Shown here in pieces: positions 1,231 to 34,278 of a stretch of DNA of 64,000 bases (the stretch's first letter is position 1; each line of letters starts with the position of its first letter). The stretch comes from Stratiolaelaps scimitus. Its lineage: Eukaryota; Arthropoda; Arachnida; Mesostigmata; Laelapidae. The DNA is taken from positions 3,340,501 through 3,404,500 of the forward strand of contig JABWDB010000018.1 of NCBI GenBank assembly GCA_019614645.1, in the 5' to 3' direction. The position numbers and the translations under genes were made by a program. The notes beneath the pieces were generated by a model. It searched no databases, was not told the DNA's origin, and saw only the letters and a program-made list of their open reading frames with translations.

Positions 1231-1285
1231 TGGTCGGGAGTGACGTACGTGTATATAGTTTATTTTGAGTATATATATTTATGAT

Positions 1286-1656
1286 TGATAGAAGGAGGCA
1301 GATTCGTGTTGTTCACTAAGTGCGGCTCGGCTTGACCCGATGTTCGCTCATGTTTATTGAAGCCCTTATATATTACAGCTGAAGTGAAAACGCTCAGGGG
1401 GAGAACAGCAAGTGAGGGTCGAATAAGCGTAGCTTTTCTGGGTAGCTTCAACGCTTTGCTTTTGTGCTCATCTATTTGACGGTCACACGTGACTTAGTGC
1501 TTTCGTCCTTGTATATTTCGTTCTTTTCTTCTGTAGCATCATAGTAGCCGTTATTTAATCTCAGGGTCACACGAAGTGAATGCTTTTGTATTAGATGTGG
1601 TGTTGACGATGGCTCAAACGCCTAGCAGAAATATATCATGGAGTTATATTTCAACA
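1286..1656 (-). repeat. LTR, type B, copy 1
   Basis: It begins TGATAG and ends TTTCAACA on the plus strand, so in element orientation it is TGTTGAAA...CTATCA. It is over 90% alike by eye to the LTR at 10549-10920, which is followed by a polypurine tract. Here no polypurine tract follows. The sequence passes directly into the upstream region of a family B gene, so this is a solo or recombined LTR. Confidence 0.75.
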
Positions 1657-1704
1657 TATGCATGTCGTCTCCGCTGTTGATACTTATGACACGCACGTGT
1701 TGGG

Positions 1705-1712
1705 TATATAGG
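1705..1712 (+). promoter_or_regulatory. TATA box of gene B copy 1
   Basis: TATATAGG inside a block (about 1657-1817) that also precedes the B copies at 9074 and 13378. The 13378 copy lacks about 30 bp including this box. The ATG is at 1818. Confidence 0.5.
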
Positions 1713-1817
1713 CGGTTTATCCTCGGGACTCCATTGTCAGTTGTGCTCTGGTGCTTCTCGAGTTCGCGTCTGTCTGATAGCGTCCAGTGTCAGCAAGAGT
1801 CAGTTAGCTCCGCAACA

Positions 1818-2743
1818 ATGTCGTCAGGAACCCGCCGCACACGAGTGCCCTACGTGGAGGGTTTTAATCCGGCAGAGACCCTTAGGATCATGACCGCTCC
1901 TCAGCTGGTTCTACAGCGAGTGGACCTTTTTTTTTCTTTAGAGGAGGACATTTTCTTCAAACGCACGGTTACCAGAGACATTCCAATCTCCATGAAAGTG
2001 GGCCGATCCAGTGCAGGGTTGACGTGGATGACAAAACGCCTCTGCCTGCTAAAACCATCCTCTGCTGAGAGTGTATCTCTTCCACAGAGTCGGCACGCTT
2101 GGCATTACTACAGTGAGTGGACCTACCCCACGGGTACGTCCCGCTGGATGGTGGCGCAGCGGAGGAAGCGCACGATTTTCCTCTCGAGGAACTCGGGGGA
2201 AACGCTCCTCGGGAGCCGTCTCCGGCCCGTCAGCGCCGGCGGACCCGTGCGCGCCCAGCGCTGTGTGTCTGGGCCGCCTTGGCCCTGATTCTGCTGGCGG
2301 TGACTGCGGTCACCTACATGTTCCTGCCCGTGCCGACGGATACATTTTTAGTGGCGACGGAGATGCCCATCACGACGCCCGTGCCCCGTCCAAAGGCGGA
2401 CCCGGAAGACACGCCGACACCGACCACTTCAACCCGCCGGCCGTCCACATCGGCCAGCATCCCCCCCCGGCGACCCATCGGAACCACCGCCACCAGTAGG
2501 CCCCCGATCGGTGGGGAAGTGATTTTCTGGTCCTTTGGGTGCGTCCCGGTCAACGGTCGCAGTCTCTGTATATCACGGGATATGGAGATGTGCGTTATAC
2601 GTTGCCGGGGTGCTCCAGATCGCCCGCACATCCTGGTGGCTCCCGCCTCTCCCGCCAATCGGTCTTGGCTGATTCGAGCCATCAGCCCAACCACGCTCGA
2701 TCCGCTGTGCTCGGCGACGCGGCTGTGCGTATCTCCCGACTAG
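1818..2743 (+). pseudogene. Antisense-type membrane protein, family B, copy 1 (197-bp insert)
   Basis: Homologous end to end to the intact copy at 13378-14073. A 197-bp segment lies between near-identical GAGTGGACCT blocks (1918-1927 and 2115-2124). Because 197 is not a multiple of three it shifts the frame, and the plus-strand frame resumes at about 2117. The downstream part has a single hydrophobic helix (ALILLAVTAVTYMFL), a Pro/Thr-rich stalk, then PPIGGEV and the Cys head C-x8-C-x7-C-VI, ending C-x5-L-C-V before TAG. It is either a pseudogene or a gene with a retained intron; AG follows a long T tract inside the insert. The LTR at 2801 starts 57 bp after the stop. Confidence 0.7.
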
Positions 2744-2800
2744 TGGACCAGCCGTCCGCCGTGGGCTGCTCTCCTAAGGGCACTGTATTTATTTTATGTT

Positions 2801-3421
2801 TGTTGGAAATTTGTAAAGACTTGGTAGGTCTTCAGGTTACTAGTTCAGTGGTTGTAGAGCTGGTAGCACTCAGGCGTTGAGTCCGTTAGTTTCTTGAAGA
2901 CTTCACTTTTTCGCTTTGTTACTCGGAGTGAAAACACAGGTCTTAGCTTGTGTGGTTTAAACACTGAAGCTCGACTTAGCTCAGTTTGGCTCGACATTTA
3001 TTGGACAGTATGCTATGGTACTGAACAACGGTGAGGGTGAACACACGTGTTGCTCCTTGCTCATAATAGCTTGCTCAATCTTTTGCTATAACCACTGATG
3101 TAATAGCGTCGCTTCGGTTCCCCATTGAAGCGTCTTGGCCTTGTCCTGATTACTGTTATAGCGGTGTGTGTGATCTTAGATTTATTCTTTTCGTCTAGTG
3201 TCTTTAGTCTTAGTGTCTTAGTGTGTCGCTAGCTTGCAGACTTGGATGGCGTCTTGTGTCTTTTATTTAGACTGTGTTTCCGTGGTTTCGACACTTGATA
3301 GATGTGTTTATGATCCGAGCTATACTTTGTATCTATGTATGGGTTCTTATCCGCTTTTCGCTACGCGTCTATATATATATATGTATGTGACCATGACGAA
3401 ACACTGAGCTTTTGCTCAACA
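2801..3421 (-). repeat. LTR, type D, copy 1 (3' LTR of a minus-strand element)
   Basis: Begins TGTTGGAAA and ends TTGCTCAACA, with TG..CA ends in both readings. It is followed at 3422 by CTCCCCCTGTTTCGG, which in element orientation is a purine-rich tract ending GGGGGAG just before the LTR. That makes this the 3' LTR of an element read on the minus strand whose interior lies to the right. A 5'-truncated copy is at 28157-28342. Confidence 0.75.
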
Positions 3422-3599
3422 CTCCCCCTGTTTCGGAATCGTCATCATATATCAGTCGTTTGGAATCTGAGATTCTTGCGTCGTATATCTCTTCTTTTTT
3501 TGGGGCGAGGGAACAAAGAGTTTGTCTACTCGAATTTTAAGGTTTAAGTTTCTTCTTTTCCGATATATGGTTCACACTTGCTCTGACCTCTGATTCAAC

Positions 3600-3872
3600 A
3601 TGTCCTCGCAGTACTACGCTGTAGTTTATCAGGGCGAAGCCCTGACCGAGGTACAACATGCCTTAGGGCTGTTGTTTTTACCTGCGGCACCTGAAGTACG
3701 CGTTCAACGATTAGACCACTTTTTGAGCGCGTTCTCACACCTCCTCGCTAATCCGGTTTTCCAGCATGGACCGCTGGACGACAGTCAAGCTAGGACTGTT
3801 CTAGGAATGTTAGGAGTAGAGCCGGATCCGGGCTCTGAAGACACCGAGGAACTCCCTCCTGTTTGGGAGTAA
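3600..3872 (+). CDS. Gene D: small soluble protein on the antisense strand of a copia element
   Basis: 90 codons, ATG to TAA, with no relative I can name. The protein has no signal peptide or transmembrane helix. A hydrophobic core (LGLLFLPAAPEV) is followed by an amphipathic stretch and a strongly acidic tail (DPGSEDTEELPP). It starts about 180 bp after the LTR and polypurine tract, the position where other elements carry gene A or B. TATATGG at about 3563 may be its TATA box, and an AATAAA signal lies about 30 bp after the stop. A broken copy at 28977-29344 sits directly beside a copia RNase H end, which ties it to a copia element that shows no env there. The conserved frame supports it being real; function unknown. 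Confidence 0.6.
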   Translation: MSSQYYAVVYQGEALTEVQHALGLLFLPAAPEVRVQRLDHFLSAFSHLLANPVFQHGPLDDSQARTVLGMLGVEPDPGSEDTEELPPVWE

Positions 3873-3926
3873 CAGTTGTTCTGTAATCCTGGTAAAAATT
3901 AAATAAACCAGGAGAGGTATGACTGA

Positions 3927-3934
3927 TATATAAG
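3927..3934 (+). promoter_or_regulatory. TATA box of gene C copy 2
   Basis: TATATAAG, 46 bp before the ATG at 3973 and about 20 bp after the AATAAA of gene D. The gene D terminator region and gene C promoter are therefore packed into roughly 50 bp. Confidence 0.6.
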
Positions 3935-3972
3935 CTTGTGGTGAGCATTAGTTGAGAACATTTCTTACTCGT

Positions 3973-4791
3973 ATGTTTAGAGATTTAGAGGTGACAATGC
4001 TTACTCCTCGCCACTCTCGCCCGGGTGTGCACTATAGCACCTTTGATGATAGCGACGAGTCGGAGGTTGAACTCTTTTCGACTCCGATGAGTATATTAGA
4101 CGTTGATCGAACTCCTCCGTCATTCTTTGAACTCCATCCAGCGCAGAAGGACGTTTCAACGCAGACGATTATGGACAACAACGGTTTCGAGTTCGAGCTC
4201 CCTGAGCTCGGAACAGGCAGGGGGCTTGAGGCCCGCTCCACTGGTCGAAGCAAGTTCGGCGGCAGGAGGTCGTGCTTGTGCACGATGTGCCTGGTGATTC
4301 TTGGCCTCACCGCAAGGCTCCTCCAGCTGTCCCTTGCGCCGCCCACCATCGCCACCACCTGCGTCCCCGCGGCGCCCACGACCACCAGGGCGCCGTTGTC
4401 AACCAGTCCGCCCGCGACCACCCGGGGCTGGCGTGAAGCGGAGGCACCCACCAGGCCCTCCACTCGCCCGACTGCGCGTCCTACCTAGCCCCGTGAGCGC
4501 ACCCCCCCGGCCGATCGAGTCTTTACCCTGGACTCGAGGGACTTCCTCGGTCACCCCACCAGGGTCGACCTCGAGGACATGGTCCGTTACCCTATCCAGC
4601 GGGTGACCATCTGCCACGAGGTGGATGGCTCCCGCTGCATAGTGGCCGGGACGACCACCTTACCATCGCGTCGAGTCACGGCCGTGGAGGCGTCGGGCCG
4701 CTTCGTCCATGAGGCGCTGATACCCGATGAGTGGCGTGCCATCCATCGGGTGTGCTCTCAGAGGCGGTTGTACGTCGTCATTCCACGGTGA
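3973..4791 (+). pseudogene. Antisense-type membrane protein, family C, copy 2 (one in-frame TAG)
   Basis: Continuous with copy 1 in homology and without its frameshift. A single TAG at 4486-4488 replaces a Glu codon in the Thr/Pro-rich stalk, and the same frame continues open to the TGA at 4791. Order: acidic N-terminal region, Lys/Arg patch with RRSCLC, short hydrophobic helix, Thr/Pro stalk, Cys head C-x8-C-x7-C-IV, final C-x5-Y-V-V. It lies downstream of gene D on the same strand, so this element seems to carry two antisense genes. AATAAA is at about 4873. Either a one-hit pseudogene or a readthrough case. Confidence 0.65.
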
Positions 4792-4888
4792 TGGTCGGGA
4801 GTGACGTGTGTGTATATTTTTTTTTGTGTGTATATATTTGTGATCAGTGATTATGTATATATTTTGGTTGTATAATAAATTTTCATAT

Positions 4889-5243
4889 TGTTGTGAAGAG
4901 TCGTAGGTTCGGGTACTCACTAACAGTCAACTTAAACTAACCTTTGGGATCGATATTTTGGAAGAGGGGTTTCGAAGTAAAGACACACTGGGTGCTACTT
5001 GTGATGCGAAGGGACTGCCCACCTGGGAACTGTGGTGCCCAGGGATTGCTCTTCGGACAGTAGTGTTCGGGCTTTATTGTGCTCTTTATATACCGTTTGT
5101 CGGTATATAAAGTCAGTTTCGGTTGAGTGATTCTCTTTTCGTAGCGTCCATGATTCTGGTATAATTATCTTTCTATCTAGTCGTCGACGAATTCAACAAT
5201 GGCAGCAATGAGAGCTAGCTTCGCTTAATCTCATTTCACAACA
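4889..5243 (-). repeat. LTR, type C, copy 1 (3' LTR)
   Basis: Has matching ends TGTTGTGAA...TTCACAACA. A homologous, longer copy (463 bp) in the opposite orientation is at 41616-42078. It is followed by CGCTCCCTC, the reverse complement of a purine tract GAGGGAGCG, so it is the 3' LTR of the minus-strand element that contains the next gene, env and pol fragment. Confidence 0.75.
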
Positions 5244-5553
5244 CGCTCCCTCATTGGTGAACACGTCGGCACTGTGATATGTGATACATGTTTGTCGATA
5301 TGTGTAGAATATCTCTGTCTCTTTTTGTCGTTTCCGCTGTATTCGCGTCGCGCATAGTCTAGGTAAGAATTTGAGACTCAGGCGGGATAAATTCGAGAGT
5401 CAACAGTATCCGGTTCGGCCTTTGGAGATCTGATCTCCTGCAGACTTGATTTTCTTTTGCTTAGTGCTTTCTTGCTGAGCGATTTCATTGGCCAGATTCG
5501 GCTTAAAAAGGGGTAGAGGTGTATCGATCGTCACATCTCTGTGCTCCCTCGAG

Positions 5554-6285
5554 ATGAGCGGACGTCCGCGTAATCGTGCCGTACCGCTAAGGCCGCCGAG
5601 ACCGCCGCCCCGTGTCCGTCGCAGAGTGCTCGTAGCCCAGGAGGAAATCGTCGCTGGAAACGACGAGGCTCCCCGTGAGGCCGCAAGACCGGGAGGAAGA
5701 CCACTCGCAAGGCTTCCCATCTTCGGTGAAGTGCTGCTCCCTCTCGCTCGTCGGTGGTTCCGTGGACCCCACCGCCCCGCGATCGCCGGTATGGCCGATG
5801 TGGCAGCCCAGGAAGACGACGCAGGCTGGGAGCCCGCGGCCGAGGCCGTCTATGAGGCAATGACCATTGAAGAGGTGGTGGACGGGGCAGATCACCCCGT
5901 CCCCAACCGCTGTCGTCTCTGGTGGGTCTGGTGCTGTCTGATTCTTTTGGCTGTGATCACTCTGTGCTTAGTAGGATGGTATGCGGTCCCCTACCATCCA
6001 CCATCTCTTCCGGTGGAGATCCATACTCCAGGCCCGTCAGCTCCTGAGGAGCCAAGCCATATCGTCCTAGGATCTGACCTGTCGCTAGTCGTCGATCTGC
6101 GACAGTTCACCTGTTCGTCTGAAGTGTGCGTCTCCGCGCGTAGGCGGATGTGCGTGATCCTGCCGGCCGTGGGCCTGAGGCCCGGTGAGACACCTATCTT
6201 TCCGATAAGTGCAGTGCCGCTTCATAATTTCAAGTCCGTTCACCAGATGTGCGGCAGTTACCAATACTTCCGAGTGTTGGAGTAA
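5554..6285 (+). CDS. Antisense type II membrane protein, family A (subtype I), copy 1
   Basis: 243 codons from ATG 5554; an upstream TTG extension is not supported. The first 60 residues are Pro/Arg-rich (PPRPPPRVRRR), followed by an acidic stretch (EAMTIEEVVDG), one transmembrane helix (about residues 127-147, LILLAVITLCLVG), a short stalk and the head. The head reads VVDLRQF, then C-x4-C-x7-C-VI, and ends C-x5-F-R-V. Positive-inside charge predicts N-terminus in the cytoplasm and head outside. AATAAA is at 6370-6375. The gene is convergent with env: its stop is 142 bp from the env stop. It lies between env and the 3' LTR of its copia element, on the opposite strand. No database family recognised. 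Confidence 0.8.
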   Translation: MSGRPRNRAVPLRPPRPPPRVRRRVLVAQEEIVAGNDEAPREAARPGGRPLARLPIFGEVLLPLARRWFRGPHRPAIAGMADVAAQEDDAGWEPAAEAVYEAMTIEEVVDGADHPVPNRCRLWWVWCCLILLAVITLCLVGWYAVPYHPPSLPVEIHTPGPSAPEEPSHIVLGSDLSLVVDLRQFTCSSEVCVSARRRMCVILPAVGLRPGETPIFPISAVPLHNFKSVHQMCGSYQYFRVLE

Positions 6286-6426
6286 AAAAAACCAAATGTA
6301 TCAGGGATGGAGAGGCCACGCCGTGTGCCTCTCCCCCCCCCCCGTGTGGGGATACCAGTTCGCCGTCAAAATAAACCTAGTACGCTCGTACTGCGAATAC
6401 ATCCTATTTTCTTTTCCATTAGTTGT

Positions 6427-6912
6427 TTAAGCATCTCGTTCTGTTATAGTATCCCGGTAGGGGCTGTCGTCTGGGCGTGATGGTAGTTCAACATATCTCG
6501 TGTGTAGGCTGTATCTGTATAATTTTATTACTGTCTTTATGATTAAGCTTAAGACAAGTACGCCGGTTAGGCAGGTTGTTATGATCGACCAGGTGCGACA
6601 ATGTTCCCCTTCTTCTGGACCGGGTTTTGCAGTGGTAGTATGTGTATGTCTGTCATAATCGGTCCATATGCTTTCACCTCCTATGGGTGGCTCGTTTGTT
6701 CTTAGACATACGGTGTAAGTGGTTGCCTTCTGTTCGCAAAGCGATTTTGATTCAATGCAATATGTCGGGAAGTAATCTGGGGTCACTTCTGTGATTGTAC
6801 AGTTTAGATTCCTCGTGATACACATTGGGTCACAGTCTTCATATGTGAAGTACATATACGTATTCGGTATTAGTGTCATCATTGCAATCGGGATGAAGCA
6901 CTTATTTTTCAT
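6427..6912 (-). CDS. Env-like type I membrane protein of copia element, copy 1
   Basis: 161 codons, starting at an ATG that overlaps the pol stop by 11 nt. Predicted signal peptide (about residues 1-20), then an ectodomain with C-x3-C-x6-C-x13-C-x6-C-x9-C, a PPIGGE-x-IW motif, a His/Thr-rich stalk, a seventh Cys, one transmembrane helix (about 108-128) and a basic-start tail of about 30 residues. The tail holds YVEL (a Yxx-hydrophobic sorting motif) and DDSPY. The predicted protein matches the copy at 39947-40432 over its whole length. Placement after RNase H is as in retroviral env, but no fusion peptide or furin site is visible, so 'env-like' is positional and topological only. Confidence 0.8.
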   Translation of the reverse strand: MKNKCFIPIAMMTLIPNTYMYFTYEDCDPMCITRNLNCTITEVTPDYFPTYCIESKSLCEQKATTYTVCLRTNEPPIGGESIWTDYDRHTHTTTAKPGPEEGEHCRTWSIITTCLTGVLVLSLIIKTVIKLYRYSLHTRYVELPSRPDDSPYRDTITERDA

Positions 6913-7445
6913 CTTTGAGTTTGTGTAATCCAGCTAGCACTTTTAATCTGTCGAATGTATTTTTGTCAGGTGGTTTGGTCAACAGATCTGCCTGTTGGAA
7001 CTGTGTGGGTGTATAGACAATATTTATTTTTTGTTGTTCAACTAGTTCGCGTATGAAATGGTATTTCACATCGATGTGTTTTGAGCGCTTGTGGAATTGG
7101 GGATTTTGAATCAATTTAATGGCTGATTGGTTGTCAGTTTGGATTGTGGGAGTTCTAGTTTCTGATAGTTCAGTTAGCAGTAGCGTTATGTGGATAGCAG
7201 ATTTTGCGGTCTCTGTCACCGCTACGTATTCTGCCTCTGTGGAAGACAGTGCTATAGTGGGTTGCTTGCTGGAGCTCCACAGCAGGGTACCTCCATGAAT
7301 TTTGACTTCGTGCGTTCTTGATCATATATATAACATTTCGAACCAAAGGGGTGGAATTTTCCTAGATAGGGTTTTTTTGTTGTAAATTATCTCGTATGCT
7401 GATTGGTTTAGAGCCTCGTTTATGGTGGTAACATTTATTTTTAAC
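6902..7445 (-). pseudogene. Copia pol fragment: RNase H end joined to integrase piece
   Basis: 6902-7297 encodes the C-terminal RNase H region (TDNQSAIKLIQNPQF, QADLLTKP) ending LKDEK. At 7297/7298 the match jumps to an integrase C-terminal segment (7298-7445, NKKPYLGKF region in homologues), so RT and part of RNase H are deleted. Comparison with 37800-39957 fixes both sides of the joint. Confidence 0.75.
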
Positions 7446-11278: not shown

Positions 11279-11922
11279 ATGGAACCAGTTATTCGGCAGC
11301 GTCGGGTTCAACGCGGTCTTGCTGGTGTACGAATCGCATTGAATCAAGCTCAAAGAGGTCTTGTGAGACCTATTAGAAGAATGTATGCTTTCCGAGGAGC
11401 CTTTCGACCTTGGATACCTCAGGCTGGACAGGCCGAAGCCGAGGTTCAAAAACCAGGACCAGGTGTTGAGTTGGTCGTGGAGACCGTGGAAGTTGAAGAT
11501 GCTCCACCGGACGTCGAAAACGCGGACCAGTCTGTATCGAAGAGGATGGTCTGTTGCGCCATTGTATCGGTTATAGCTATCTTTGTGATGGTCTTAGTCA
11601 TCTGGTTTGCTCTATCTTCCCCGGATATAGAGCTGCACTCGATCAATGTGGAAACCTCTCCTGATGACTCCAGAGATGAGGAGACCTCCAAGATCTCCCT
11701 AAGACCGGGGTTCTCGGTCGTTGTAGATCTCCGACAATTTTCGTGCTCACATGACGTGTGTGTGTGTCAGCATTAAAACGTATATGTGTAATTTTACCAC
11801 ATGCGCTAGTTGACAAGGGTGAGAAGATGATTTACCCTATTGGTGTAGTGCCAATATGTGGTTTTTCATCAATACGTCAACTCTGTGGGAATTACAAGTC
11901 TTTCAGAGTGTATGAGGAGTGA
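11279..11922 (+). pseudogene. Family A (subtype II), copy 4 (frameshift in GT repeat)
   Basis: Begins MEPVIRQRRV, Arg-rich (subtype II N-terminus), then an acidic stretch, a transmembrane helix (IVSVIAIFVMVLVIWFAL) and the head. Within the head a GTGTGTGTGT run is longer than in the intact 47522 copy, and the frame is lost at about 11765. In the shifted frame homology continues to C-x5-F-R-V-Y-E-E and TGA at 11922. AATAAA is at about 11985. Convergent with env2, stop-to-stop about 110 bp. Confidence 0.75.
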
Positions 11923-12031: not shown

Positions 12032-12517
12032 TTAATTATCTGTGTCTTCTACTTCACTAACAGTGCCTCTGTATGGGTTGTCGGGAGCGTTGGTTGTCAT
12101 TCTAACATAATCTTTTTTACATGCATATTTGCATACTTTGTATAGTATTGCAATTAATATCAGTTTGTTTATGAAAATGATCTGGCATATAGTTATTGTT
12201 TTCCATGTGGTACATCCTTCATTTGTGTGTGGTCTTGGTGTAGTCGTATTTGGATGTAAATGTTTTTTATAATCGGACCAGATGTTTTCTCCTCCGATTG
12301 GATCTTTGTCAGGTTGTAGACATACTCGATTCGGGTTTGCCTTTTGTTCACATAGGATTGACGATTCTATGCAGTAGCATGGAAATTCATTATTTGATGC
12401 TTCTATAATTAGACAGCTTATGTTTATTTGCTGGCATTGTGAATCACAGTCCTGATATTTAAAATAGCATTGCACTTGTCTAACCCACAACGTTATGAGT
12501 ATTGTGTTGAGTTTCAT
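12032..12517 (-). CDS. Env-like type I membrane protein, copy 2
   Basis: 161 codons, ATG to TAA, open throughout. Signal peptide, invariant ectodomain spacing C-x3-C-x6-C-x13-C-x6-C-x9-C, DPIGGE-x-IW, Thr/Pro stalk, juxtamembrane Cys, one helix, and a tail with YVRM and PDNPY. The start lies inside the end of pol, whose stop is at 12480-12482, so the two frames overlap by 38 nt. Diverged from the copies at 6427 and 14209, yet all motif positions are kept, which suggests selection on the protein. Confidence 0.75.
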   Translation of the reverse strand: MKLNTILITLWVRQVQCYFKYQDCDSQCQQINISCLIIEASNNEFPCYCIESSILCEQKANPNRVCLQPDKDPIGGENIWSDYKKHLHPNTTTPRPHTNEGCTTWKTITICQIIFINKLILIAILYKVCKYACKKDYVRMTTNAPDNPYRGTVSEVEDTDN

Positions 12518-12682
12518 CGTTGAGTTTGGTAAGTCCAGTTAAGGACCTAAGTTTTTGAAACTGTGCTTTCGGCAGTGGCTTTGTTAGTATGTCAGCTACT
12601 TGTGATTCTGTAGGGGTGTATTTTATGCCTATCGCTTTTCTCTCATACAGTTCTCGAACAAAATGAAACTTTACATCGATAT
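12480..12682 (-). pseudogene. Pol C-terminus of the older element (left part)
   Basis: RNase H tail of copia type with the motif VADILTKPL, ending at TAG 12480-12482. It is cut at 12682 by insertion of the near-intact element and resumes at 19355. Confidence 0.7.
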
Positions 12683-13108
12683 TGTTGGCCTTGACACTTT
12701 CTTGACACTAGCTCAGTACTTCTACTTGCTTAACTAGTACAGTGAATACACGACTTGATGTGCTGTTTGTTACTCGGAGCCGGCAGCGGGACTTCACCAG
12801 CTCACCTTGGACGCTAGGTTTGAAGTAACTCTATCAGGCTCGAGCTTGCTTTTATTAACCAGACCTGACCTAGGTGCGAGGGGTAGCCTAGGGCCCCCCG
12901 TCTCTCCCTGTACTATCGTCCGCTTCTCTCTCTATAATGCTGTAGGGTACCTGGTCTCTTTTCTGGTGTCGTTCTTAACTCTCCTTAAGACCTTAACATT
13001 GAGTTGGAATATTACTCAAACTTAGAATGTGTTCTACCTATGCGCGCATCTATCTAACACGGCTCTATGTCGCCAAGTGCGGGCCGAGACAACACTTGAT
13101 ATTCAACA
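12683..13108 (-). repeat. 3' LTR of the near-intact element (type E1)
   Basis: Starts TGTTGGCC and ends ATTCAACA on the plus strand. Followed at 13109 by CTCCCCCGTTTCTCGG, the complement of the polypurine tract that primes plus-strand synthesis. Confidence 0.9.
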
Positions 13109-13135
13109 CTCCCCCGTTTCTCGGTCGGCACTTGC
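13109..13135 (-). other. Polypurine tract of the near-intact element
   Basis: In element orientation CCGAGAAACGGGGGAG directly precedes the 3' LTR. The same purine block, with small changes, borders the type A, B, D and E LTRs and shows which side of each LTR is element interior. Confidence 0.7.
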
Positions 13136-13377
13136 TCGCCTGAACTTGATACACATTTGTCAGCTTTTTATATACAAGGTTTCTTCTAGCGTTCCGAATC
13201 GCATTCGGATAGCTCTACCTATATCTTCCACTTTTTCGTATGTGCATGTCGTCTCCACTGTTGACACTTATGACACGCGATCCCTGAGACTCCATTGTCA
13301 GTTGTGCTCAGCGCTTTTCGAGTTCACGTCGGTCTGACAACGTCCAGCGTACGCAAGAATCAGTTACCCCTGCAACC

Positions 13378-14073
13378 ATGCCGTCAAAAATGCGCCACAC
13401 ACGAGTGCCCCACGTGGAGGGCCTTAGCCGAGCGGAGGTCCTTAGGATCATGGACGCTCCCCAGTTGGTTCTGGAGCGAGTGGACGTACCCCACGGGTAC
13501 GTTCCGCTGGGTGCCGGCGCGGCGGAGGAAACCCATGACTTTCCTCTTGAGGAGCTCGGGGGGGACGCTCCTCGTCCCCGTCAGCGCCGGCGGACCCGCA
13601 CCCGCCCAGCGCTGTGTGCCTGGGCCGCCGTGGCCCTGACCCTACTGGTGGTGACTGCGGTCACCTACATCTTTTTGCCCGTGCCGACGGACACGTCCTC
13701 AGTGGCGACGGAGATCCCTATCTCGACGCCCGCGCCACGTCCAAAGGCGGATCCGGAAGGCACGACGCCACCGACCACCTCAACTACCATCCCTCCGCGC
13801 CGATCCATCGAAAGCACCACCACCACCAGGCCCCCGATCGGTCGGGAAGTGATCTTCCGGTCCTTTGGGTGTGTCCCAGTCAATGGTCGCAGTCTCTGCA
13901 CATCACGGGATATGGGGATGTGCGTCATACGCCGCCGGGGTGCTCCAGATCGCCCGCACATCCTAGTGGTCCGCGCCTCTCCCGCCGATCGGTCTTGGCT
14001 GACTCGAGCCATCAGTCCAGCCCCGCTCGATCCGCTGTGCTCAGCGACGCGGCTGTACGTGTCTGCCGACTAG
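13378..14073 (+). CDS. Antisense type II membrane protein, family B, intact copy
   Basis: 231 codons, ATG to TAG, uninterrupted. Residues 1-75 form a polar cytoplasmic part with an Arg-rich RQRRRTRTR patch. A helix (about 82-101, VALTLLVVTAVTYIFL) is followed by a Pro/Thr-rich mucin-like stalk (about 102-150), RPPIGREVI, then the head C-x8-C-x7-C-VI with a final C-x5-Y-V. It lies between env and the 3' LTR on the opposite strand, and its stop is 136 bp from the env stop. The upstream block that carries TATATAGG in the other B copies is deleted here, so promoter use is uncertain. It shares the PIGG-E-x-I motif with the env-like protein, possibly by chance. Function unknown; inferred cell- or particle-surface protein. 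Confidence 0.8.
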   Translation: MPSKMRHTRVPHVEGLSRAEVLRIMDAPQLVLERVDVPHGYVPLGAGAAEETHDFPLEELGGDAPRPRQRRRTRTRPALCAWAAVALTLLVVTAVTYIFLPVPTDTSSVATEIPISTPAPRPKADPEGTTPPTTSTTIPPRRSIESTTTTRPPIGREVIFRSFGCVPVNGRSLCTSRDMGMCVIRRRGAPDRPHILVVRASPADRSWLTRAISPAPLDPLCSATRLYVSAD

Positions 14074-14208
14074 TGGGCCAGCCGTGCGCCGTGGACTGCC
14101 CTCCTAAGGGCACTGTATTTATTTTATGTTTATATCTGTGTGTATATCCATATATTTGTTTCATATCGTTCACGTATTTATAATACATTTTTCACTGAAT
14201 ATACTCGA

Positions 14209-14691
14209 CTATTCTGCGTCTTCAATGGTATTCTGGTACGGGTTGTCATTGGTGTGTGTAGGTAATTCTTCGTAGTTGTTTCGTTTACATTTCTTGATCA
14301 TTATACGCGTCACGTTGTACATTACACATAGTGTGCCCATTGTGGACATTACAATGCTCACGACAGTCCAAGTCTTGTTAGTACACACCACTGTTGGTGC
14401 TTCTGTTGTTGTCGTTGTGTGGTGTCTGTTTCTATCGAAGTCTGGCCAGATGTCTTCACCTCCGATCGGTGGTCCCACCTTTCTAATGCACACCTCTTTC
14501 CGTGATGCATCCTGTACGCAGGCACTCTCTGATTCCATGCAGGTGTTACTAAACATCTCAGGGTTCATCTCTGCAATCAGGCAGCTAACAGACTTTTCCT
14601 TGCACTTCGCATCACAATCATCATACTCAAAGTATCCGTGCACTAGTCTCACCAGCAGACCCAGGATCAATGTGAGCGTCAGGCCTCTCAT
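14209..14691 (-). CDS. Env-like type I membrane protein of the near-intact element
   Basis: 160 codons. The start overlaps the pol stop as ATGA (14688-14691), an arrangement used elsewhere for termination-reinitiation. Clear signal peptide (LTLTLILGLLVRLVHG), six-Cys ectodomain with the same spacing as its relatives, PPIGGE-D-IW, Thr-rich stalk, a seventh Cys, a helix (about 107-127), then a tail with YEEL and NDNPY. The short ectodomain (about 85 residues) is far smaller than errantiviral or retroviral Env, and no fusion peptide is seen. It may be a receptor-binding, assembly or trafficking factor. Confidence 0.8.
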   Translation of the reverse strand: MRGLTLTLILGLLVRLVHGYFEYDDCDAKCKEKSVSCLIAEMNPEMFSNTCMESESACVQDASRKEVCIRKVGPPIGGEDIWPDFDRNRHHTTTTTEAPTVVCTNKTWTVVSIVMSTMGTLCVMYNVTRIMIKKCKRNNYEELPTHTNDNPYQNTIEDAE

Positions 14692-17021
14692 GCTGCCTTC
14701 TCAGTGATCCCGATTAGCTGTCTTAGCCGCTGGAATGTTGCCTTTGGGAGTGGCTTCGTCAGTACGTCAGCGAGTTGCAATTCCGTGGGCACGTAGTCCA
14801 CGGTTATAATCTTTCGTTCCACTAAATCTCTAATGAAGAAGTATTTAGTCTCGATATGTTTGGTGCGCCTGTAAAACTGCGGATTCTGAATTAGTTTAAT
14901 CGCTGATTGATTATCGACGTACAACTGAGTTATGCCAGAACAATTTAATTCATGCAACAAATTGTTCACCCAAATCATAGACTTGGCCGTCTCCGCAGCA
15001 GCAATAAATTCCGCCTCAGTGGTTGACGTTGCCACTGTTGATTGTCGCGTGGATGCCCAGATGATCGCACCACCCTGTCTCCTGATCACCGTCCCGCTCG
15101 TTGACTTGCGTGTGTTGGGATCTGCTGCAAAATCAGAATCAGAGAGAGCGGCGGAATCACATCCTGCTCTCCTGTTATATGTTATACCTAGTGAGGGGTT
15201 TGCCCTCAGGTAGCGTAAGACTTTCAGGGCAGCATGCCAATGCGCGCCGGTCGGTTTTTCCAGGAACCGTGACAGATATCCCACCGTAAACGCCATATCC
15301 AACCTGGTTCCCATTGCCAGGTACATTAACGATCCTATTAGCTCACGGTATGGATAACTGTGCTCTGTCTCCTCTGAATCAAGGGAGTACAATCCGCTGT
15401 CCGACGGGGTGGATGCTGGCCTGCAGTCTATCATATCGAACTTAGCCAATACCTCTCTGGCATAGTTCCCTTGGTGAATTCGAATGTCACCGTCTTTGGT
15501 TCGATCAATATTGATGCCCAGGAAATAAGACAGTGGACCGTGTGTGATTGTGAACTCCTTTGAAATATCAGCTAGGAAGTTCTTTATGACTCTCTCGGTC
15601 GTTCCACACACGATCGCATCATCTACGTAGATGCACATTATCAACCGCTCCTCTCCCTCGGTGTAGAATACACACGGGTCGGCTCGGCTACGGCTCATCC
15701 CCAAGCCGAGGAGCACGTCTCTTAGTTTGTTGTGAAAGCAACGCGGTGCCTGTTTCAGCCCATACATTGCTTTGTTTAATCGACATACACGCCCTGAGTT
15801 GTCGTTGAACCCTTCGGGCTGCGTCATGAATATTTCTTCCTCCAGTTCGGCATTTAGGAATGCCGTTTTCACATCGAACTGGTGTATACACATATTGAGT
15901 TCAGCTGCCACACTCAGTAGGGTTCTTATCGTTTCGAACCTCGCTACTGGGCTGAACAATTCTTTAAAGTCTACTCCAGCTCTCTGCGAATAGCCTTTTA
16001 CTACTAGTCGTGCCTTAAAGCGGTCTACCTCTCCGCTGGCATTTTTCTTAAGCTTGAAGATCCACCGACAGCCGATCGCCTTGCGATTCTTTGGCAAATC
16101 GGTCAGGGACCACACTCCAAAGTCATGCATAGACTTGAGTTCATCCTGCATTGCCTCGATCCAAGACTTCCTCTGTGCCGATCCTAAGGCCTCCTCCAGA
16201 GTGCTTGGCTCTACTATTTCACTTTTCTCTGTGGCGTTTGCTTCACAAGTGGTACCATCACCGTCGATGGGCTGGCTGCACACTTGATCGCTGTCGCTCT
16301 CTCCTTCTCTCGGCTCACTTGACTGTAGAAGATCGGGCTCATCTGCTCGCGCCTCTTCTTCATCTTCACTCAGTCGCTCCCCCGTAAGGTAGTCGACTCT
16401 TTCTCTTTCGTCTTCGTCTTCTGGTTCAGCCGGTCGTCGAGACGACCCGGGTTGTTCGGAGTCAGTGTCTTTCGGAGGGTGCAGCGGACTTGTTTTCGGG
16501 AAGGTTACATCTTTACTAGTAACTATAGTTCGTGTACCGGGGATCCAAAGTCTATACCCAGTTCCCAAATCAGTTATTCCAACCATTACCCCAGGTAGTC
16601 CCCGTTGTTCTAGTTTACCTCTATTAAGTTTCTGATTGAAATAATAACAGCGTGATCCAAAGGCATGGATTTTGCCCAGATATGGCTTGGTCCCATGTAT
16701 GACTTCGTATGACGTTTTGTCTTCCTCTGGTATTATTGTGATTGCGTTGAGGACTTGGACGCTAAAGTTTAAGGCTTCGGCCCACAACGTTTTTGGAAGA
16801 TTTGTACTAATGAGGAGTGTTCTAACCAAGTCTAATAATGTTCGGTTTGATCGCTCTGCTATTCCATTTTGTTGGGGTGTGTGGGGATTGGATAGTGTAT
16901 GTACCGCTCCAACCTGTTTGAGTACATTCGCTACTTTGCTATTGTTAAATTCGAGCCCTCCGTCAGAATGGAATTCGGTTATGTCTTTGCCGGTCGTGGT
17001 TCTGAACCATTTTACGTAATG
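14688..17021 (-). CDS. Copia pol, downstream part: integrase core, RT, RNase H
   Basis: About 777 codons in the same frame as the upstream gag section, separated from it by TAG 17022-17024. It begins HYVKWFRTTTG and carries the second Asp (FHSDGG) and the Glu (PQQNGIAERSNR) of the integrase DDE triad. Then come the variable acidic linker, RT with YVDD at about 15627, and RNase H with SDSDFAAD and the KPL end motif. No start codon lies close to the TAG, and the frame is fully open, so expression probably needs readthrough or another recoding event. The stop codon TGA overlaps the env start. Confidence 0.85.
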   Translation of the reverse strand, partial: HYVKWFRTTTGKDITEFHSDGGLEFNNSKVANVLKQVGAVHTLSNPHTPQQNGIAERSNRTLLDLVRTLLISTNLPKTLWAEALNFSVQVLNAITIIPEEDKTSYEVIHGTKPYLGKIHAFGSRCYYFNQKLNRGKLEQRGLPGVMVGITDLGTGYRLWIPGTRTIVTSKDVTFPKTSPLHPPKDTDSEQPGSSRRPAEPEDEDERERVDYLTGERLSEDEEEARADEPDLLQSSEPREGESDSDQVCSQPIDGDGTTCEANATEKSEIVEPSTLEEALGSAQRKSWIEAMQDELKSMHDFGVWSLTDLPKNRKAIGCRWIFKLKKNASGEVDRFKARLVVKGYSQRAGVDFKELFSPVARFETIRTLLSVAAELNMCIHQFDVKTAFLNAELEEEIFMTQPEGFNDNSGRVCRLNKAMYGLKQAPRCFHNKLRDVLLGLGMSRSRADPCVFYTEGEERLIMCIYVDDAIVCGTTERVIKNFLADISKEFTITHGPLSYFLGINIDRTKDGDIRIHQGNYAREVLAKFDMIDCRPASTPSDSGLYSLDSEETEHSYPYRELIGSLMYLAMGTRLDMAFTVGYLSRFLEKPTGAHWHAALKVLRYLRANPSLGITYNRRAGCDSAALSDSDFAADPNTRKSTSGTVIRRQGGAIIWASTRQSTVATSTTEAEFIAAAETAKSMIWVNNLLHELNCSGITQLYVDNQSAIKLIQNPQFYRRTKHIETKYFFIRDLVERKIITVDYVPTELQLADVLTKPLPKATFQRLRQLIGITEKAA

Positions 17022-17024
17022 CTA
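17022..17024 (-). promoter_or_regulatory. Candidate stop-readthrough site in integrase
   Basis: ATC TAG CAT TAC. TAG sits at exactly the same alignment position in the copia copies at 25060-25062 (ATA TAG CAA TTC) and 37550-37552 (CTA TAG CAA TTC). The frame is open immediately after in all three. The C-A after UAG resembles known leaky contexts. Confidence 0.6.
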
Positions 17025-18806
17025 GATGCTACTAGCCGCCTCATCCTTGCTCTTTAAAAAATATGCCGTTCTATATTTGCTATATTCGTCCGTTAGGCAC
17101 ATAAAATGTGTTGCCCCTCCCATGGACTTTACTGTTGGGGTGCACAGGTCAGCATGAATCCTACCAGGCGTTTTCGGCCTTACACTTGGTGGCCGTGGTT
17201 TGTACGAAGCCCTATGCATTTTTCCTTTCATGCATGCTTCGCAGTCTGGCATGTCATCATTGAAGGCAATGCCCTCTCTTTGGAGAATGGCCTTGACTTT
17301 CTCTTTACTTACATGGGCCAGGGCCTCATGCACGAGTCTCAGGCTAGTCCGTTTTACGCTTTCAGACTGCATCCCCTCGGCAGCTTGGTGTCTGATGTCG
17401 CACATCGACCCATATATCAGGAACAGTCCATTCTTTCTTTCCGCCGTCACTTTTTCATCTCCTTTGCGCAACGACAGTCCGGATCTATCGGCAACAAGTG
17501 TGTAGCCGTCATTGATCAGCATATCAGCTGAGATCAAGTTCCGTCGCATTTTGGGAACATAAAGAACTCCTTTGAGTTCCATAGTTTTAACGCTATCGCC
17601 CTCCACTATTTCCATCATTACAGTGCCTTCGCCGTGACACTTCAATGTGTGGGCGCTCCCCACTCGCACCTGTCCTACACCCGTTTGGGTGTGTAAATCG
17701 GTGAACCACCTTTTATTGTTTACTACGTGGTGACTCGACCCGCTGTCTACTACAAATTCTTCTGCGTTCCCGTCTAGACAGGATACGAGCGCTTCGGCTC
17801 GATTGTTTAGTTCGTTGGTGTTTGCTACCGGCAACTCGACTGCCTCCAGATGGTTGAACTCAGCTCTCCGACCCTCTCTTTGGTTCGGTCTGTAACCAGG
17901 CTGTTGTGCTCTGGCACAGTTACGAGCCAGGTGGCCTTTCTGACCGCAAACGTAGCACTGTCCGTCGAACTTTCTGCTCTGATTGTCCTTGGCGAATCTC
18001 GACTTTGGACTTGGCTGTTGTTGCTGTGGTTGCTGTCTCCAAGCGGGTTGTCTGGGAGGCCCCCCCCTTGGTGCCGGCCATGGATGACGACCGGTCGGCA
18101 GCCTGTGGTCGAAGGTCGCTCGCGCCATCAGAGCGGTTGCCGAGTCTACATCATTTCTTGATCTTCGAGCCGCTTCGGCGTTGATCATTTCCAATAGGTC
18201 CGGCAGGTTCTTGTCTGTCGACGACTTTGTGCTCCAAGCCATCTTGAACGGCTCCCAGTCTCGCGGCAACGCATCGATCAAACGAGCCGTTGCTATGTCT
18301 CTGTCTATGGTCGCTCCCACCTCATCCAGTGTATACATAAGTTGTTTGAACCGGTTGATGTTTTCGACAACAGACTTGGCCGAATTGTATCTGTAGCTCA
18401 TAAATCTGCTTATGGCCTGATCCTTAAGTACTCCGCTTTGCTTTCCGTATGTGGCTTTTACTTTTGCCCAAATGGTGGGGGCGTTCACTGTGGCGGTTTG
18501 GCCGTAGAACAAATTAATAACGATGTGAGGATGAAGAGCTTTAAATAATATCAGGCGGGCGCTTTTGTTTCCTGTATCGAATTTCGCCTGTTGCTTCTTC
18601 TGAGCGTCTGTCGGTACTTCTTTCTCTGGCACCACTGGGGGTGTTAGCTCACCACTCGTAACTTCCCAGGCATATTGCTCAGCCTGTAAGTATATCGGCA
18701 TGAGCGTGATCCACGCTAAGTAATTCTTACCACCGTCACCCAACACGATAGGACTGGTGGTGTTCTGCGCCTTACCGCTGCCGCTCGTGGCGTCATTGAA
18801 TGCCAT
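17022..18806 (-). CDS. Copia gag-protease-integrase N-terminal part
   Basis: 594 codons from ATG. UBN2-type Gag (about residues 25-230), Gln-rich linker, one CCHC knuckle C-x2-C-x4-H-x4-C (about 283-296), aspartic protease DSGSSHH (about 354), GAG-pre-integrase HEALAHV with C-x2-C-type zinc ligands (about 496-545), then the first catalytic Asp of integrase (HADLC, about 553). It ends at TAG 17022-17024, between the first and second catalytic Asp. A capsid precursor that ends inside integrase is unusual: classical Drosophila copia encodes one uninterrupted polyprotein. Confidence 0.85.
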   Translation of the reverse strand: MAFNDATSGSGKAQNTTSPIVLGDGGKNYLAWITLMPIYLQAEQYAWEVTSGELTPPVVPEKEVPTDAQKKQQAKFDTGNKSARLILFKALHPHIVINLFYGQTATVNAPTIWAKVKATYGKQSGVLKDQAISRFMSYRYNSAKSVVENINRFKQLMYTLDEVGATIDRDIATARLIDALPRDWEPFKMAWSTKSSTDKNLPDLLEMINAEAARRSRNDVDSATALMARATFDHRLPTGRHPWPAPRGGPPRQPAWRQQPQQQQPSPKSRFAKDNQSRKFDGQCYVCGQKGHLARNCARAQQPGYRPNQREGRRAEFNHLEAVELPVANTNELNNRAEALVSCLDGNAEEFVVDSGSSHHVVNNKRWFTDLHTQTGVGQVRVGSAHTLKCHGEGTVMMEIVEGDSVKTMELKGVLYVPKMRRNLISADMLINDGYTLVADRSGLSLRKGDEKVTAERKNGLFLIYGSMCDIRHQAAEGMQSESVKRTSLRLVHEALAHVSKEKVKAILQREGIAFNDDMPDCEACMKGKMHRASYKPRPPSVRPKTPGRIHADLCTPTVKSMGGATHFMCLTDEYSKYRTAYFLKSKDEAASSI

Positions 18807-18910
18807 GGTTCACTTTTGTATTTGGCTCTATTTAACTCAAGAAAAAAAAGACGATTCTACTTACACTTACTTCGTTGGTTCGTTGACCACCTTTTACGTG
18901 CACCGCAGGG

Positions 18911-18928
18911 CTTCGTGCTGATAACGCT
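18911..18928 (-). other. Primer-binding site, tRNA-Ile anticodon-arm type
   Basis: Plus strand CTTCGTGCTGATAACGCT abuts the 5' LTR. The strand shown corresponds to tRNA-Ile(IAU) around the anticodon, with G where the gene has A34. This implies priming by a cleaved 5' half-tRNA, as in Drosophila copia, which uses initiator tRNA-Met. Matching sites: near 7785, 27131-27147, 33463-33479 and 54629-54645. Confidence 0.7.
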
Positions 18929-19354
18929 TGTTGGCCTTGACACTTTCTTGACACTAGCTCAGTACTTCTACTTGCTTAACTAGTACAGTGAATACACGAC
19001 TTGATGTGCTGTTTGTTACTCGGAGCCGGCAGCGGGACTTCACCAGCTCACCTTGGACGCTAGGTTTGAAGTGACTCTATCAGGCCCGAGCTTGCTTTTA
19101 TTAACTAGACATGACCTAGGTGCGAGGGGTAGTCTAGGGCCCCCCGTCTCTCCCTGTACTATCGTCCGCTTCTCTCTCTATAATGCTGTAGGGTACCTGG
19201 TCTCTTTTCTGGTGTCGTTCTTAACTCTCCTTAAGACCTTAACATTGAGTTGGAATATTACTCAAACTTAGAATGTGTTCTACCTATGCGCGCATCTATC
19301 TAACACGGCTCTATGTCGCCAAGTGCGGGCCGAGACAACACTTGATATTCAACA
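18929..19354 (-). repeat. 5' LTR of the near-intact element
   Basis: 426 bp with TGTTGG...ATTCAACA on the plus strand. In element orientation it drives the full-length transcript. Followed by the GATAT target duplication at 19355-19359. Confidence 0.9.
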
Positions 19355-19487
19355 GATATGTTTAGTTCGCTTATGAAATTCTGGGTTTTGAATTAATCTA
19401 ATTGCTGATTGGTTGTCTATTTGGATGACTGGAGTTATATCGTGAGATAATTCATGGAGTAGGCTTTTTAACCATACAGATGCTTTT
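19355..19487 (-). pseudogene. Pol fragment of the older element (right part)
   Basis: Resumes RNase H coding directly after the target duplication (region around DNQSAIRLIQNP and the preceding LLHELS). It is cut at 19488 by a type A LTR, so the remaining pol and gag of this element are absent. Confidence 0.7.
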
Positions 19488-19981
19488 TGATAGAAGGCGG
19501 TAGATTCGATCTGCGTTAGAGTGACTGCAGATACTGCTCACGGCGAGAATGAACACACGTCTTTTCTTTTCTTCTGCAGCGACACCAGCTCACAACTGCG
19601 ACCAGCTCCGGTGTCTTCCTTTCGTTTATTGGCGCTTAAATACCCACTTACAGTGTTAAGTGTGGTGAGGGAACACTTCAGTGTTTCCGCTTTTCGGTCA
19701 GTTAGCGTGTCCCTGACCTACTACTGTGGTCAGTCTGCATTGGCCATGTAGCCGCTTTCGTAATTGCTTATCGCTGTGTTTTAGATGCTTTAAGTGGTGC
19801 GTCATTGCTTGCTTCTTTCTTAGTTTCGTCATATCGCTTTTCATAGATCTATCGTATTGGCTTTCTTATTTTGGTTGTGTTGTTACATCACTTAGACGTG
19901 GACTGAGATTAATAGATGCTTTCGATCTTATTGTTGGTGGGGTCGGAAAACACAGTATCAGTCGCAGGCTGATATTCAACA
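19488..19981 (-). repeat. LTR, type A, copy 1 (3' LTR position)
   Basis: TGATAGAAGGCGG...GATATTCAACA, 494 bp, followed by CTTCCCCTTTTTCCGAACA (purine tract complement). Interior lies to the right and begins with the family A gene at 20230. Confidence 0.8.
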
Positions 19982-20229: not shown

Positions 20230-20889
20230 ATGTCGTCTCTCGTACGTCGCAGAGGTGTTGATCAGCTTGAAGATCAGGATCCTTCACTTGTAGTTCAAGC
20301 CCGCACTCGACCTGTCGTTGTCCGACGTCCGTGGTACATTCGACGTTATCTTCGGGAAGTTCTGTTCCTCTCACCCGTGGCACGTCGTAGAGATATGTCT
20401 TTGGATCAGACCCGCGAACCCGCCAATACCTTGGAAAGGGAGACGATAGAGATGATATCATTTGAAGATGCTGTCGAGGAAGTTGCATCCCCGTCGACTC
20501 CTCGATCTCTGTGGATAGGTCGTGGGTTGATCTTGGGTATATTTCTGCTTTTGCTCTTCGTCACCCTGTTCTTCGTCATACGGTCTGTTGATCCCGAACC
20601 AATCAGGCCAGTCGAGGTAGAGACTCCAGAGGATTCGTCGTCCACTACGGAAACTACCCGAATCATTCTGAAGTCCGGGATTTCGATCGTCGTCGATTTA
20701 CGCCGCTTTTCATGCTCGGGGAACGTTTGCGTTTCCGCAAAACGACGGATGTGTGTCATTCTCCCAGATGCCACTGCTCAAGATGGTGACACCTCCTTGT
20801 ACCCAATTAGTGCGATTCCAGTGAATCGCCTGCAAGAAACGCACCGTTCTTGTGGCGGATACCCGTCGTATCGGGTCCTTGAGCTCTAG
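20230..20889 (+). CDS. Antisense type II membrane protein, family A (subtype III), intact copy
   Basis: 219 codons, ATG to TAG. Arg-rich N-terminus (VRRPWYIRRYLREV), acidic segment (MISFEDAVEEV), helix (about 97-117, LILGIFLLLLFVTLFFVI), stalk, then head with VVDLRRFSC, C-x4-C-x7-C-VI and a final C-x5-Y-R-V-LEL. Located 248 bp right of the polypurine tract. env and pol of this element are missing: another LTR follows 83 bp after the stop. The preserved frame in such a truncated context suggests a young rearrangement or selection for the gene. Confidence 0.8.
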   Translation: MSSLVRRRGVDQLEDQDPSLVVQARTRPVVVRRPWYIRRYLREVLFLSPVARRRDMSLDQTREPANTLERETIEMISFEDAVEEVASPSTPRSLWIGRGLILGIFLLLLFVTLFFVIRSVDPEPIRPVEVETPEDSSSTTETTRIILKSGISIVVDLRRFSCSGNVCVSAKRRMCVILPDATAQDGDTSLYPISAIPVNRLQETHRSCGGYPSYRVLEL

Positions 20890-33958: not shown

Positions 33959-34278
33959 TGTTGGAGACGCTGACTATGACATATGTCAAACGTCACCATA
34001 AATAACCGATAGCCACCTGATATGTCAAACGTCACTTGAGATGTCAGATGTCACTTCACGTGGAGATAGAAAAGACCATAGAACAAGGACCCGTAGAGCG
34101 TCCACCATGATCACAGGTGTTAGGTAACCGGATGACACCCCTTTCCACGATATCTAGCCATCTTACAAGAATAAAAGCCAAGCAACCGGGCGACACACAA
34201 CAGTCCGCAAATGAACCGCACTTGAACATTGTTCTCATTTTTCTCGTTCTACACGACCATCAGTGAAAGAACACAACA
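33959..34278 (+). repeat. 5' LTR of the composite
   Basis: TGTTGGAGACG...ACACAACA. Followed by GTTGGCGACGAAGAC, a TGGCGAC-type primer site. Contains repeats of ATGTCAAACGTCAC. Confidence 0.85.

Follow-up and report, generated by a model that had tools for sequence, protein, structure and literature searches.

The DNA analyzed here is a stretch of 64,000 nucleotides (the window) from the mite Stratiolaelaps scimitus (GenBank GCA_019614645.1, contig JABWDB010000018.1); it corresponds to C18:3340501-3404500 of a 426-Mb genome in 145 contigs. The window contains a nearly intact Ty1/copia-type retrotransposon at 12683-19354 on the minus strand (element N), which is bounded by long terminal repeats (LTRs) and a target-site duplication (TSD). 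Two genes lie between its pol gene and the 3' LTR: an env-like gene in the sense orientation and, on the opposite strand, a gene termed B. The features of the element are as follows.

12678-12682, no strand: left copy of the TSD GATAT, read directly from the sequence
12683-13108, minus strand: 3' LTR, 98.8% identical to 18929-19354
13109-13124, minus strand: polypurine tract (PPT) adjoining the 3' LTR, read directly; a similar LTR-end/PPT block precedes other antisense genes
13125-13377, plus strand: leader and putative promoter of gene B; a TATA-like stretch, recognized by pattern only, precedes the ATG by 209 bp
13378-14073, plus strand: gene B, 231 aa, a predicted type II membrane protein with a four-cysteine ectodomain, antisense to gag-pol-env
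14209-14691, minus strand: env-like gene, 160 aa, predicted to encode a small type I membrane protein; it shares 4 nt with the end of pol
14688-16829, minus strand: downstream part of pol, with the remainder of integrase, an SH3-like domain, a copia-type reverse transcriptase (RT) and the RNase H region (Pfam)
17022-17024, minus strand: in-frame TAG inside integrase, at an equivalent position in four families
17022-18806, minus strand: gag, protease and start of integrase (Pfam Retrotran_gag_2, zf-CCHC, Pol_BBD, gag_pre-integrs)
18929-19354, minus strand: 5' LTR, 98.8% identical to 12683-13108
19355-19359, no strand: right copy of the TSD GATAT, read directly

The Pfam domain order places integrase before RT, as is typical for Ty1/copia elements. 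Pol_BBD was recognized in the upstream ORF with E 6.3e-21 (gag_pre-integrs, at E 6e-4, was below the cut-off), and RVT_2 (E 2.5e-74) and SH3_retrovirus (E 1.8e-18) were found in the downstream part of pol. The LTR, which reads TGTTGGCC...TTCAACA on the plus strand, has TG..CA ends; the PPT is located beside the 3' LTR and the TSDs are 5 bp long (GATAT here, ATTAT and AACAT in two relatives described below). Gene B converges with the env-like gene at a spacing of 135 bp and is located between env and the PPT. The original prediction had placed an antisense gene in exactly this slot of a copia element, and the ORF map, the LTRs and the TSD confirm it. The element itself is nested in the pol gene of an older copia element (pol pieces 12525-12692 and 19355-19528), the env of which is found at 12032-12517.

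The antisense and env-like protein families

Antisense genes of types A, B, C, G and J encode proteins with one plan: a head, one membrane span and an ectodomain with the pattern C-x(4-8)-C-x7-C-x(29-38)-C. The spacing is C-x4-C-x7-C-x32-C in A, C-x8-C-x7-C-x38-C in B, C and G, and C-x4-C-x7-C-x29-C in J. Proteins of the five intact kinds have 188-280 aa, and the C-terminal ectodomain covers 98-152 aa in the nine proteins measured. Lys and Arg are in excess in the 20 residues before the span as compared with those after it in 8/9 proteins measured, A44562 being the exception; we infer a type II topology, in which the head is cytoplasmic, from hydropathy and this charge distribution. Because they have this topology and the four-cysteine ectodomain in common, A, B, C, G and J look like one family. 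A and B had been regarded as different genes in the original prediction, as had F. The F type has no complete ectodomain in the copies examined.

A membrane span followed by C-x(4-8)-C-x7-C-x(26-42)-C occurs in 16 of the 106 distinct ORFs of at least 150 aa in the window and the loci, and all 16 are antisense types, while only 1/2450 shuffled ectodomains has it; the range of this motif was chosen after the members were known, so that the counts are a check of specificity and not a blind test. A comparison of the A and B/G profiles with hhalign gave E 3.8e-4, a probability of 36% and a score of 33.3, the maximum for 60 column shuffles being 19.5. The search of a protein database with gene A resulted in no match, and no relative was found in viral and prokaryote collections. 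Two kinds of hits were rejected: opsin stretches among the PDB profile matches of antisense alignment A1 (E ≥0.01), which were considered membrane-helix noise, and Pfam Orf78 for A11279 (E 0.26), which was below the cut-off.

The env-like proteins have 156-169 aa in the 11 sequences aligned and comprise a signal-like N-terminus, an ectodomain of about 85 aa after this segment, a Thr/Pro-rich stalk, a span and a tail. Six cysteines are present in 10/11 sequences and the tail motif D-N-P-Y-x-x-T, which presumably resembles NPxY endocytosis signals, in 8/11. No homology to a known Env or fusion glycoprotein was detected: env N matched no Pfam family and the 4-row env alignment A2 matched no PDB sequence. 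The term env is therefore used for position and topology alone. Pfam Pox_L3_FP4, which was suggested for env 12032 (E 0.005), was below the cut-off and was rejected. A protein database search with env 39947 resulted in no match, and the 11-sequence alignment found one relative (P0001, 161 aa, E 3e-33) on a 2255-base contig from a JGI metagenome.

A search of the genome with env 39947 as query gave 83 matches. The loci examined are the best-scoring copies and not a random sample. Antisense genes of types A, B, C, F or G were located by tblastn up to 1.5 kb downstream of env. Such a gene, or a piece of one, was found beside env in 23 of the 30 best loci (L009-L038, of which some are in the window and many are near-identical), and none was found within this distance in L013, L020, L031, L033, L035, L036 and L038. 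Ten further env loci contained an antisense homologue in six cases: the C type in L047, L048 and L049, and the J type, which the initial queries had missed or hardly matched, in L045 (intact), L046 and L052 (both broken). No homologue was found at the other four (L044, L050, L051 and L053). Overall, an antisense relative is located just downstream of env in 29/43 loci, or in 29/40 loci with a separate env, intact or broken. L048 has both genes intact, env and, facing it, a C-type gene of 280 aa. Separately, three copies of another env family (L044 540-872, L050 and L053) have a 111-aa antisense ORF in common; it has no four-cysteine motif and was rejected as a member of the family.

Young elements are present in the G family. 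L039 (span 807-7325) has 462-bp LTRs with 100% identity, the TSD ATTAT and ORFs for gag (582 aa), pol (742 aa), env (157 aa) and, from its ATG, the antisense protein (222 aa). The LTRs of L040 are also 100% identical over 462 bp; its TSD is AACAT and its gag frame is shorter (445 aa). The 222-aa antisense ORF is open in all seven G copies fetched, which are spread over six contigs.

The arrangement is different in L041-L043, which represent two families, H (at least seven matches) and I (one match). Here env is fused to pol in one frame, which is about 1572-1591 aa long in most such matches, and an antisense gene is present in the slot in 0/3. A 341-base stretch starts 124 bases after env in L041 and recurs with 100% identity 5' of gag-pol in L085; a 348-base stretch starts 24 bases after env in L043 and recurs at 98.9% in L013. 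We read both as LTRs because of their recurrence and their position after env. L043 does contain a gene A copy, which has lost a large internal part, about 400 bases behind env; since the LTR ends 370 bases behind env, this copy is beyond the LTR and was not assigned to the slot.

The window itself contains further antisense and env-like genes:

667-1230, plus strand: copy of the C-type antisense gene, the intact relative of which faces the intact env in L048
5554-6285, plus strand: gene A, antisense, facing env 6427-6912
6427-6912, minus strand: env-like gene, forming one element remnant with gene A 5554
11279-11776, plus strand: gene A copy, antisense, with a broken ectodomain, facing env 12032-12517
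12032-12517, minus strand: env-like gene facing gene A 11279
20230-20889, plus strand: gene A copy preceded by an LTR end with PPT at 19978; an adjoining env was not found
39947-40432, plus strand: env-like gene facing gene A 40574
40574-41305, minus strand: gene A, antisense, facing env 39947-40432
44577-45305, plus strand: gene A copy preceded by an LTR end with PPT at 44422; an adjoining env was not found

Several of these pairs had been predicted before, and the convergent A/env pairs 5554/6427, 11279/12032, 40574/39947 and 48434/48692 are indeed present. The distances between the convergent genes are 141 bp in two A pairs and 135 bp in B, in agreement with the 70-142 bp expected, and 19 bp in the G family, which widens that range. 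Three env queries in tblastn did not recover the env scraps proposed at 23809 and 43862; in the latter case, similarity at the DNA level extends only to the last bases of env. An F gene had been proposed at 33517 as the partner of an env at 42590, separated from it by a later insertion; here a remnant of the A type was found at 33626-33895 (E 3e-5), the env is present at 42590-42970, and identical 320-bp repeats are located between the two at 33959 and 42168.

The latter belong to a set of three near-identical 320-bp repeats (33959-34278, 36764-37083 and 42168-42487), which surround a copia element (37034-41744) and, at 34385-36733, a gag-protease ORF from a different LTR-type element. The repeats and the enclosed elements appear to be a later composite insertion. 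Env-bearing copia elements form dense nests, mostly in one orientation, in the window at 5000-33500, in C18:3.3-3.4 Mb, C18:0-157 kb and C68:484-568 kb; this arrangement is reminiscent of a unistrand piRNA cluster.

The integrase TAG occurs also at 37550-37552 (plus strand), at about 25065 (minus strand), at 3137-3139 of L039 and in L040 (minus strand). These 5/5 sites were found via the FMCL motif in the sequence examined, and two of them are in near-identical young G copies. In each case the TAG is single and in-frame, is followed by CAA or CAT and lies between HADLC and HSD motifs. This suggests a site of programmed UAG readthrough rather than decay, in a setting that we take to be a UAG-CAA-type readthrough context. 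A stretch around CGTTATCAGCACG that resembles a primer site is present just inside the 5' LTRs at 18929 and 27148 and also in L039 and L040; it presumably resembles the anticodon arm of tRNA-Ile and would fit a copia-style half-tRNA priming.

Residence in elements, selection and co-inheritance with env

The antisense genes could in principle be host genes, i.e. members of a tandem type II family that was captured or hit repeatedly by copia insertions. The copies in the window are clustered on the plus strand like a gene array, with the exception of 40574, and some have no adjoining env. Gene B, however, is located between LTRs with a matching TSD, the G copies are spread over six contigs, and 2/2 G elements read as a whole have identical flanking LTRs. 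On the plus strand of the window, 8/9 sites with the LTR-end/PPT pattern lie 140-562 bp before an antisense gene, while the minus strand has 0 sites; the pattern was defined after examples were known. In favor of host genes, of the 20 antisense genes and gene pieces tested in the window, 12 lack a site of this kind in the 600 bp upstream; a variant of the pattern is visible by eye in four of these 12 (A5554, A30310, A41335 and C380).

Genome searches with gene B and gene A5488 gave 24 and 31 matches respectively, and 26 of these sites (12 + 14) are outside the cluster at C18:3.33-3.40 Mb. According to the coordinates of the env matches and a reading of L079 and L084, an env on the opposite strand faces the antisense gene within about 1 kb at 21/26 sites (12/12 for gene B, 9/14 for gene A). 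At the remaining five (L078 and L080-L083) an LTR-end-like stretch is located just upstream of the antisense gene; it measures 49-65 bases in L078 and L081-L083, not in L080, and is present in both orientations in L078. L081 also contains a gag remnant, which must come from another insertion because it is on the same strand as the antisense gene. The free-standing host genes that the original prediction had named as contrary evidence were not found in these searches with genes A and B, since 0/26 sites are clear of copia parts; five of the 26 are linked to copia by the LTR-end-like stretch alone. We consider this host-gene explanation very improbable.

The selection on the antisense gene was estimated as dN/dS by the Nei-Gojobori method; the P values refer to synonymous excess and are those of single tests. 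In the deeper pairs the gene is under purifying selection (dN/dS 0.13-0.34). The values are 0.13 for A5554/A30337 (P 6.7e-17), 0.14 for A40577/A30337 (P 5e-19), 0.24 for A47522/A11279 (P 1e-7), 0.26 for A43109/A11279, 0.26 for A5554/A40577 (P 3e-5) and 0.34 for B_N/B2117 (P 2e-5). B_N/L024 gave 0.50 (P 5e-3), where dN is inflated because the end of the L024 reading passes into a different frame. Comparisons across the A, B and G types have saturated synonymous sites. The values near 1 that had been named beforehand as contrary evidence were not obtained in the deeper comparisons.

The antisense gene has also diverged together with its env. The pairwise distances of env and of the antisense ectodomain are correlated with r 0.76 over seven elements, one per clade; 5/5040 permutations reach this value, or 1/720 without the partial e12. 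This congruence indicates that the antisense gene mostly travelled with its env. Copies at 5.1-7.3 kb and 39.6-41.7 kb differ at 0/486 positions in env versus 43/732 in gene A, so that some exchange of 3' ends between elements may have taken place.

These data also bear on the explanation that the antisense frames are chance or mirror ORFs without function. Other overlapping ORFs of 120-170 aa do occur on both strands of the window. Codon-position bias, dN/dS, the four-cysteine motif and the congruence with env all speak against chance, which we regard as extremely improbable because of the conservation seen as low dN/dS in A and B and as a common motif in C, G and J. For the F type the case against chance remains weak (dN/dS 0.90).

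Possible roles and known systems

The interpretation of the antisense gene as part of the element is supported. The elements form an animal Ty1/copia clade in which the region from pol to the 3' LTR holds two genes for membrane proteins, a sense env-like one (predicted type I) and an antisense one (predicted type II). This layout, its residence within LTRs and TSDs, its recurrence across families, the common protein plan, the co-divergence with env and the purifying selection are observed; with moderate confidence, we favor the view that the two products are paired at the surface. The antisense gene would then be a conserved accessory gene and probably encodes a surface partner of the env-like protein. 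More tentatively, since we hold this extension to be possible rather than probable, the elements may have a retrovirus-like two-glycoprotein system. In that case the antisense type II gene, with its own promoter, would have been gained once in a lineage with a separate env and integrase UAG readthrough, and would have co-diversified with env in no fewer than five kinds of element (A, B, C, G and J).

The sense RNA would give rise to Gag, the readthrough polyprotein and the env-like protein, and the antisense RNA to the type II protein. The antisense gene is presumably transcribed from a promoter of its own in the roughly 140-350 bp between the PPT and the ATG, so that the type II protein would be made independently of the gag-pol-env RNA. 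Some families have TATA-like stretches there, which precede the ATG by 209 bp in N and by 193 bp in L018. A block with CGTATGT is present upstream of A22978, L018, L021 and A44562, and it is not found in A5554, A41305, A47522, A11279 and A30337. The type II protein may then reach the surface of the cell or particle, and the type I and type II proteins could act as a pair in attachment or in passage from cell to cell, i.e. from soma to germline.

Several observations weigh against this view. The putative promoter motifs are pattern matches, and 14/43 env loci, several of them decayed, are without an antisense gene. The H and I families show that the env-like protein does not always need one. 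The link from A to B is modest on hhalign alone (36%), and neither the antisense nor the env-like protein showed a known domain in Pfam and PDB profile comparisons. AlphaFold modelled A44562 (7-row alignment) with confidence only in the membrane helix and poorly elsewhere, with a mean pLDDT of 49.9. Finally, dN/dS is high in shallow pairs with few changes (A47522/A43109 1.42, A47522/A45477 1.96, A20230/L021 1.34, F32040/F_L012 0.90), and G25/G32 (0.55) and L015/L018 (0.45) are likewise near 1 or not significant. Such values are as expected of dead copies; the pattern would be the usual one for selection on a mobile lineage with neutral decay after insertion.

A different role is that of a regulatory accessory comparable to HBZ of HTLV-1 or micropia antisense RNA, in which the antisense transcript or protein restrains or times sense expression and the membrane anchor is incidental or serves in signalling. 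Convergent genes with a gap of 19-141 bp invite transcript interference, and the slot between pol and the 3' LTR equals that of the plant elements Grande and Retand. Antisense roles have been proposed for plant elements and for micropia in passages of one paper (PMC7264820). What purifying selection has conserved here, however, is not a bZIP protein but one that spans the membrane and has a cysteine ectodomain, and an RNA-only role would not keep the codons. We favor a surface partner over an RNA regulator because the ectodomain is conserved and co-diverges with env, and consider the regulatory role rather unlikely.

The type II protein might instead be an interference or immune-type accessory, which on the host cell blocks the re-entry of kin or dampens a host surface pathway and so protects the cell instead of helping transmission. 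The predicted type II surface topology allows this. The divergence of the antisense ectodomain versus env gives it no clear support (0.71 versus 0.57 for N/G, 0.55 versus 0.62 for A40/L018, 0.50 versus 0.66 for A40/L021), and we think it unlikely, even more so than a regulatory role.

A close known arrangement is that of the plant aORF-3R elements (maize Grande with gene23, Silene Retand, rice RIRE2 and PvRetro13), in which, according to PMC7264820, an opposite-strand gene is located between pol and the 3' LTR. This gene is described there as present in most copies of some families, as without clear resemblance to other proteins and, for Grande gene23, as having its own promoter; the product in Grande is a nuclear one (PMC7264820). 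The mite gene occupies the same slot on the opposite strand. It differs from the plant genes in that the element is an animal copia, the product is a predicted type II membrane protein and an env-like gene faces it in the slot.

Antisense genes towards the 3' end are also known from retroviruses, namely HBZ of HTLV-1 and ASP of HIV-1; ASP overlaps env, whereas the antisense gene and env of the mite elements are separate. HBZ is a nuclear regulator of the bZIP type. Gene B is not of this type, having no Pfam family and a single hydrophobic span. Plant copia elements of the Sirevirus/SIRE1 type also carry an env-like ORF after pol; the likeness to the mite elements is one of layout, and we know of no antisense membrane gene in them.

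Small membrane proteins are found in other animal elements as well. As described in PMC11952523, sORF2 of the Drosophila MDG1 group is a FAST-like small membrane protein that has been linked to passage between cells into the oocyte; it belongs to Gypsy-type elements (Metaviridae), has 63-107 aa, is N-outside and in sense orientation, and is usually located upstream of gag. The mite proteins do not fit the FAST/sORF2 plan (an N-outside ectodomain of ~30 residues, a basic and amphipathic endodomain, 63-200 aa): the antisense proteins have 188-280 aa and a predicted C-terminal ectodomain, and the ectodomain of the env-like proteins has about 85 aa. LTR elements of bdelloid rotifers have, in the sections drawn on here, diverse small transmembrane ORF3 proteins of obscure origin downstream of pol, and are thus similar as animal LTR elements with such proteins; antisense is mentioned there just for small RNAs (PMC5408684). 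The passages on env and antisense in PMC8220671, PMC3587641 and PMC8556966 contain no antisense gene in an animal copia element, and none is reported in the titles or abstract openings among the matches listed from the open PMC literature, subscription papers being outside this scope.

Antisense accessory genes of LTR elements are thus known from plants and from a few mammalian retroviruses, mostly without a known function. In the mite they occur in an animal copia clade, with a recognisable membrane protein, measurable purifying selection and young elements with identical LTRs. An animal host, a selected membrane protein and young elements make the function of an antisense gene testable in a living animal. 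Copia elements are normally considered confined to the cell; if the pair acts in transmission, they would have a route between cells.

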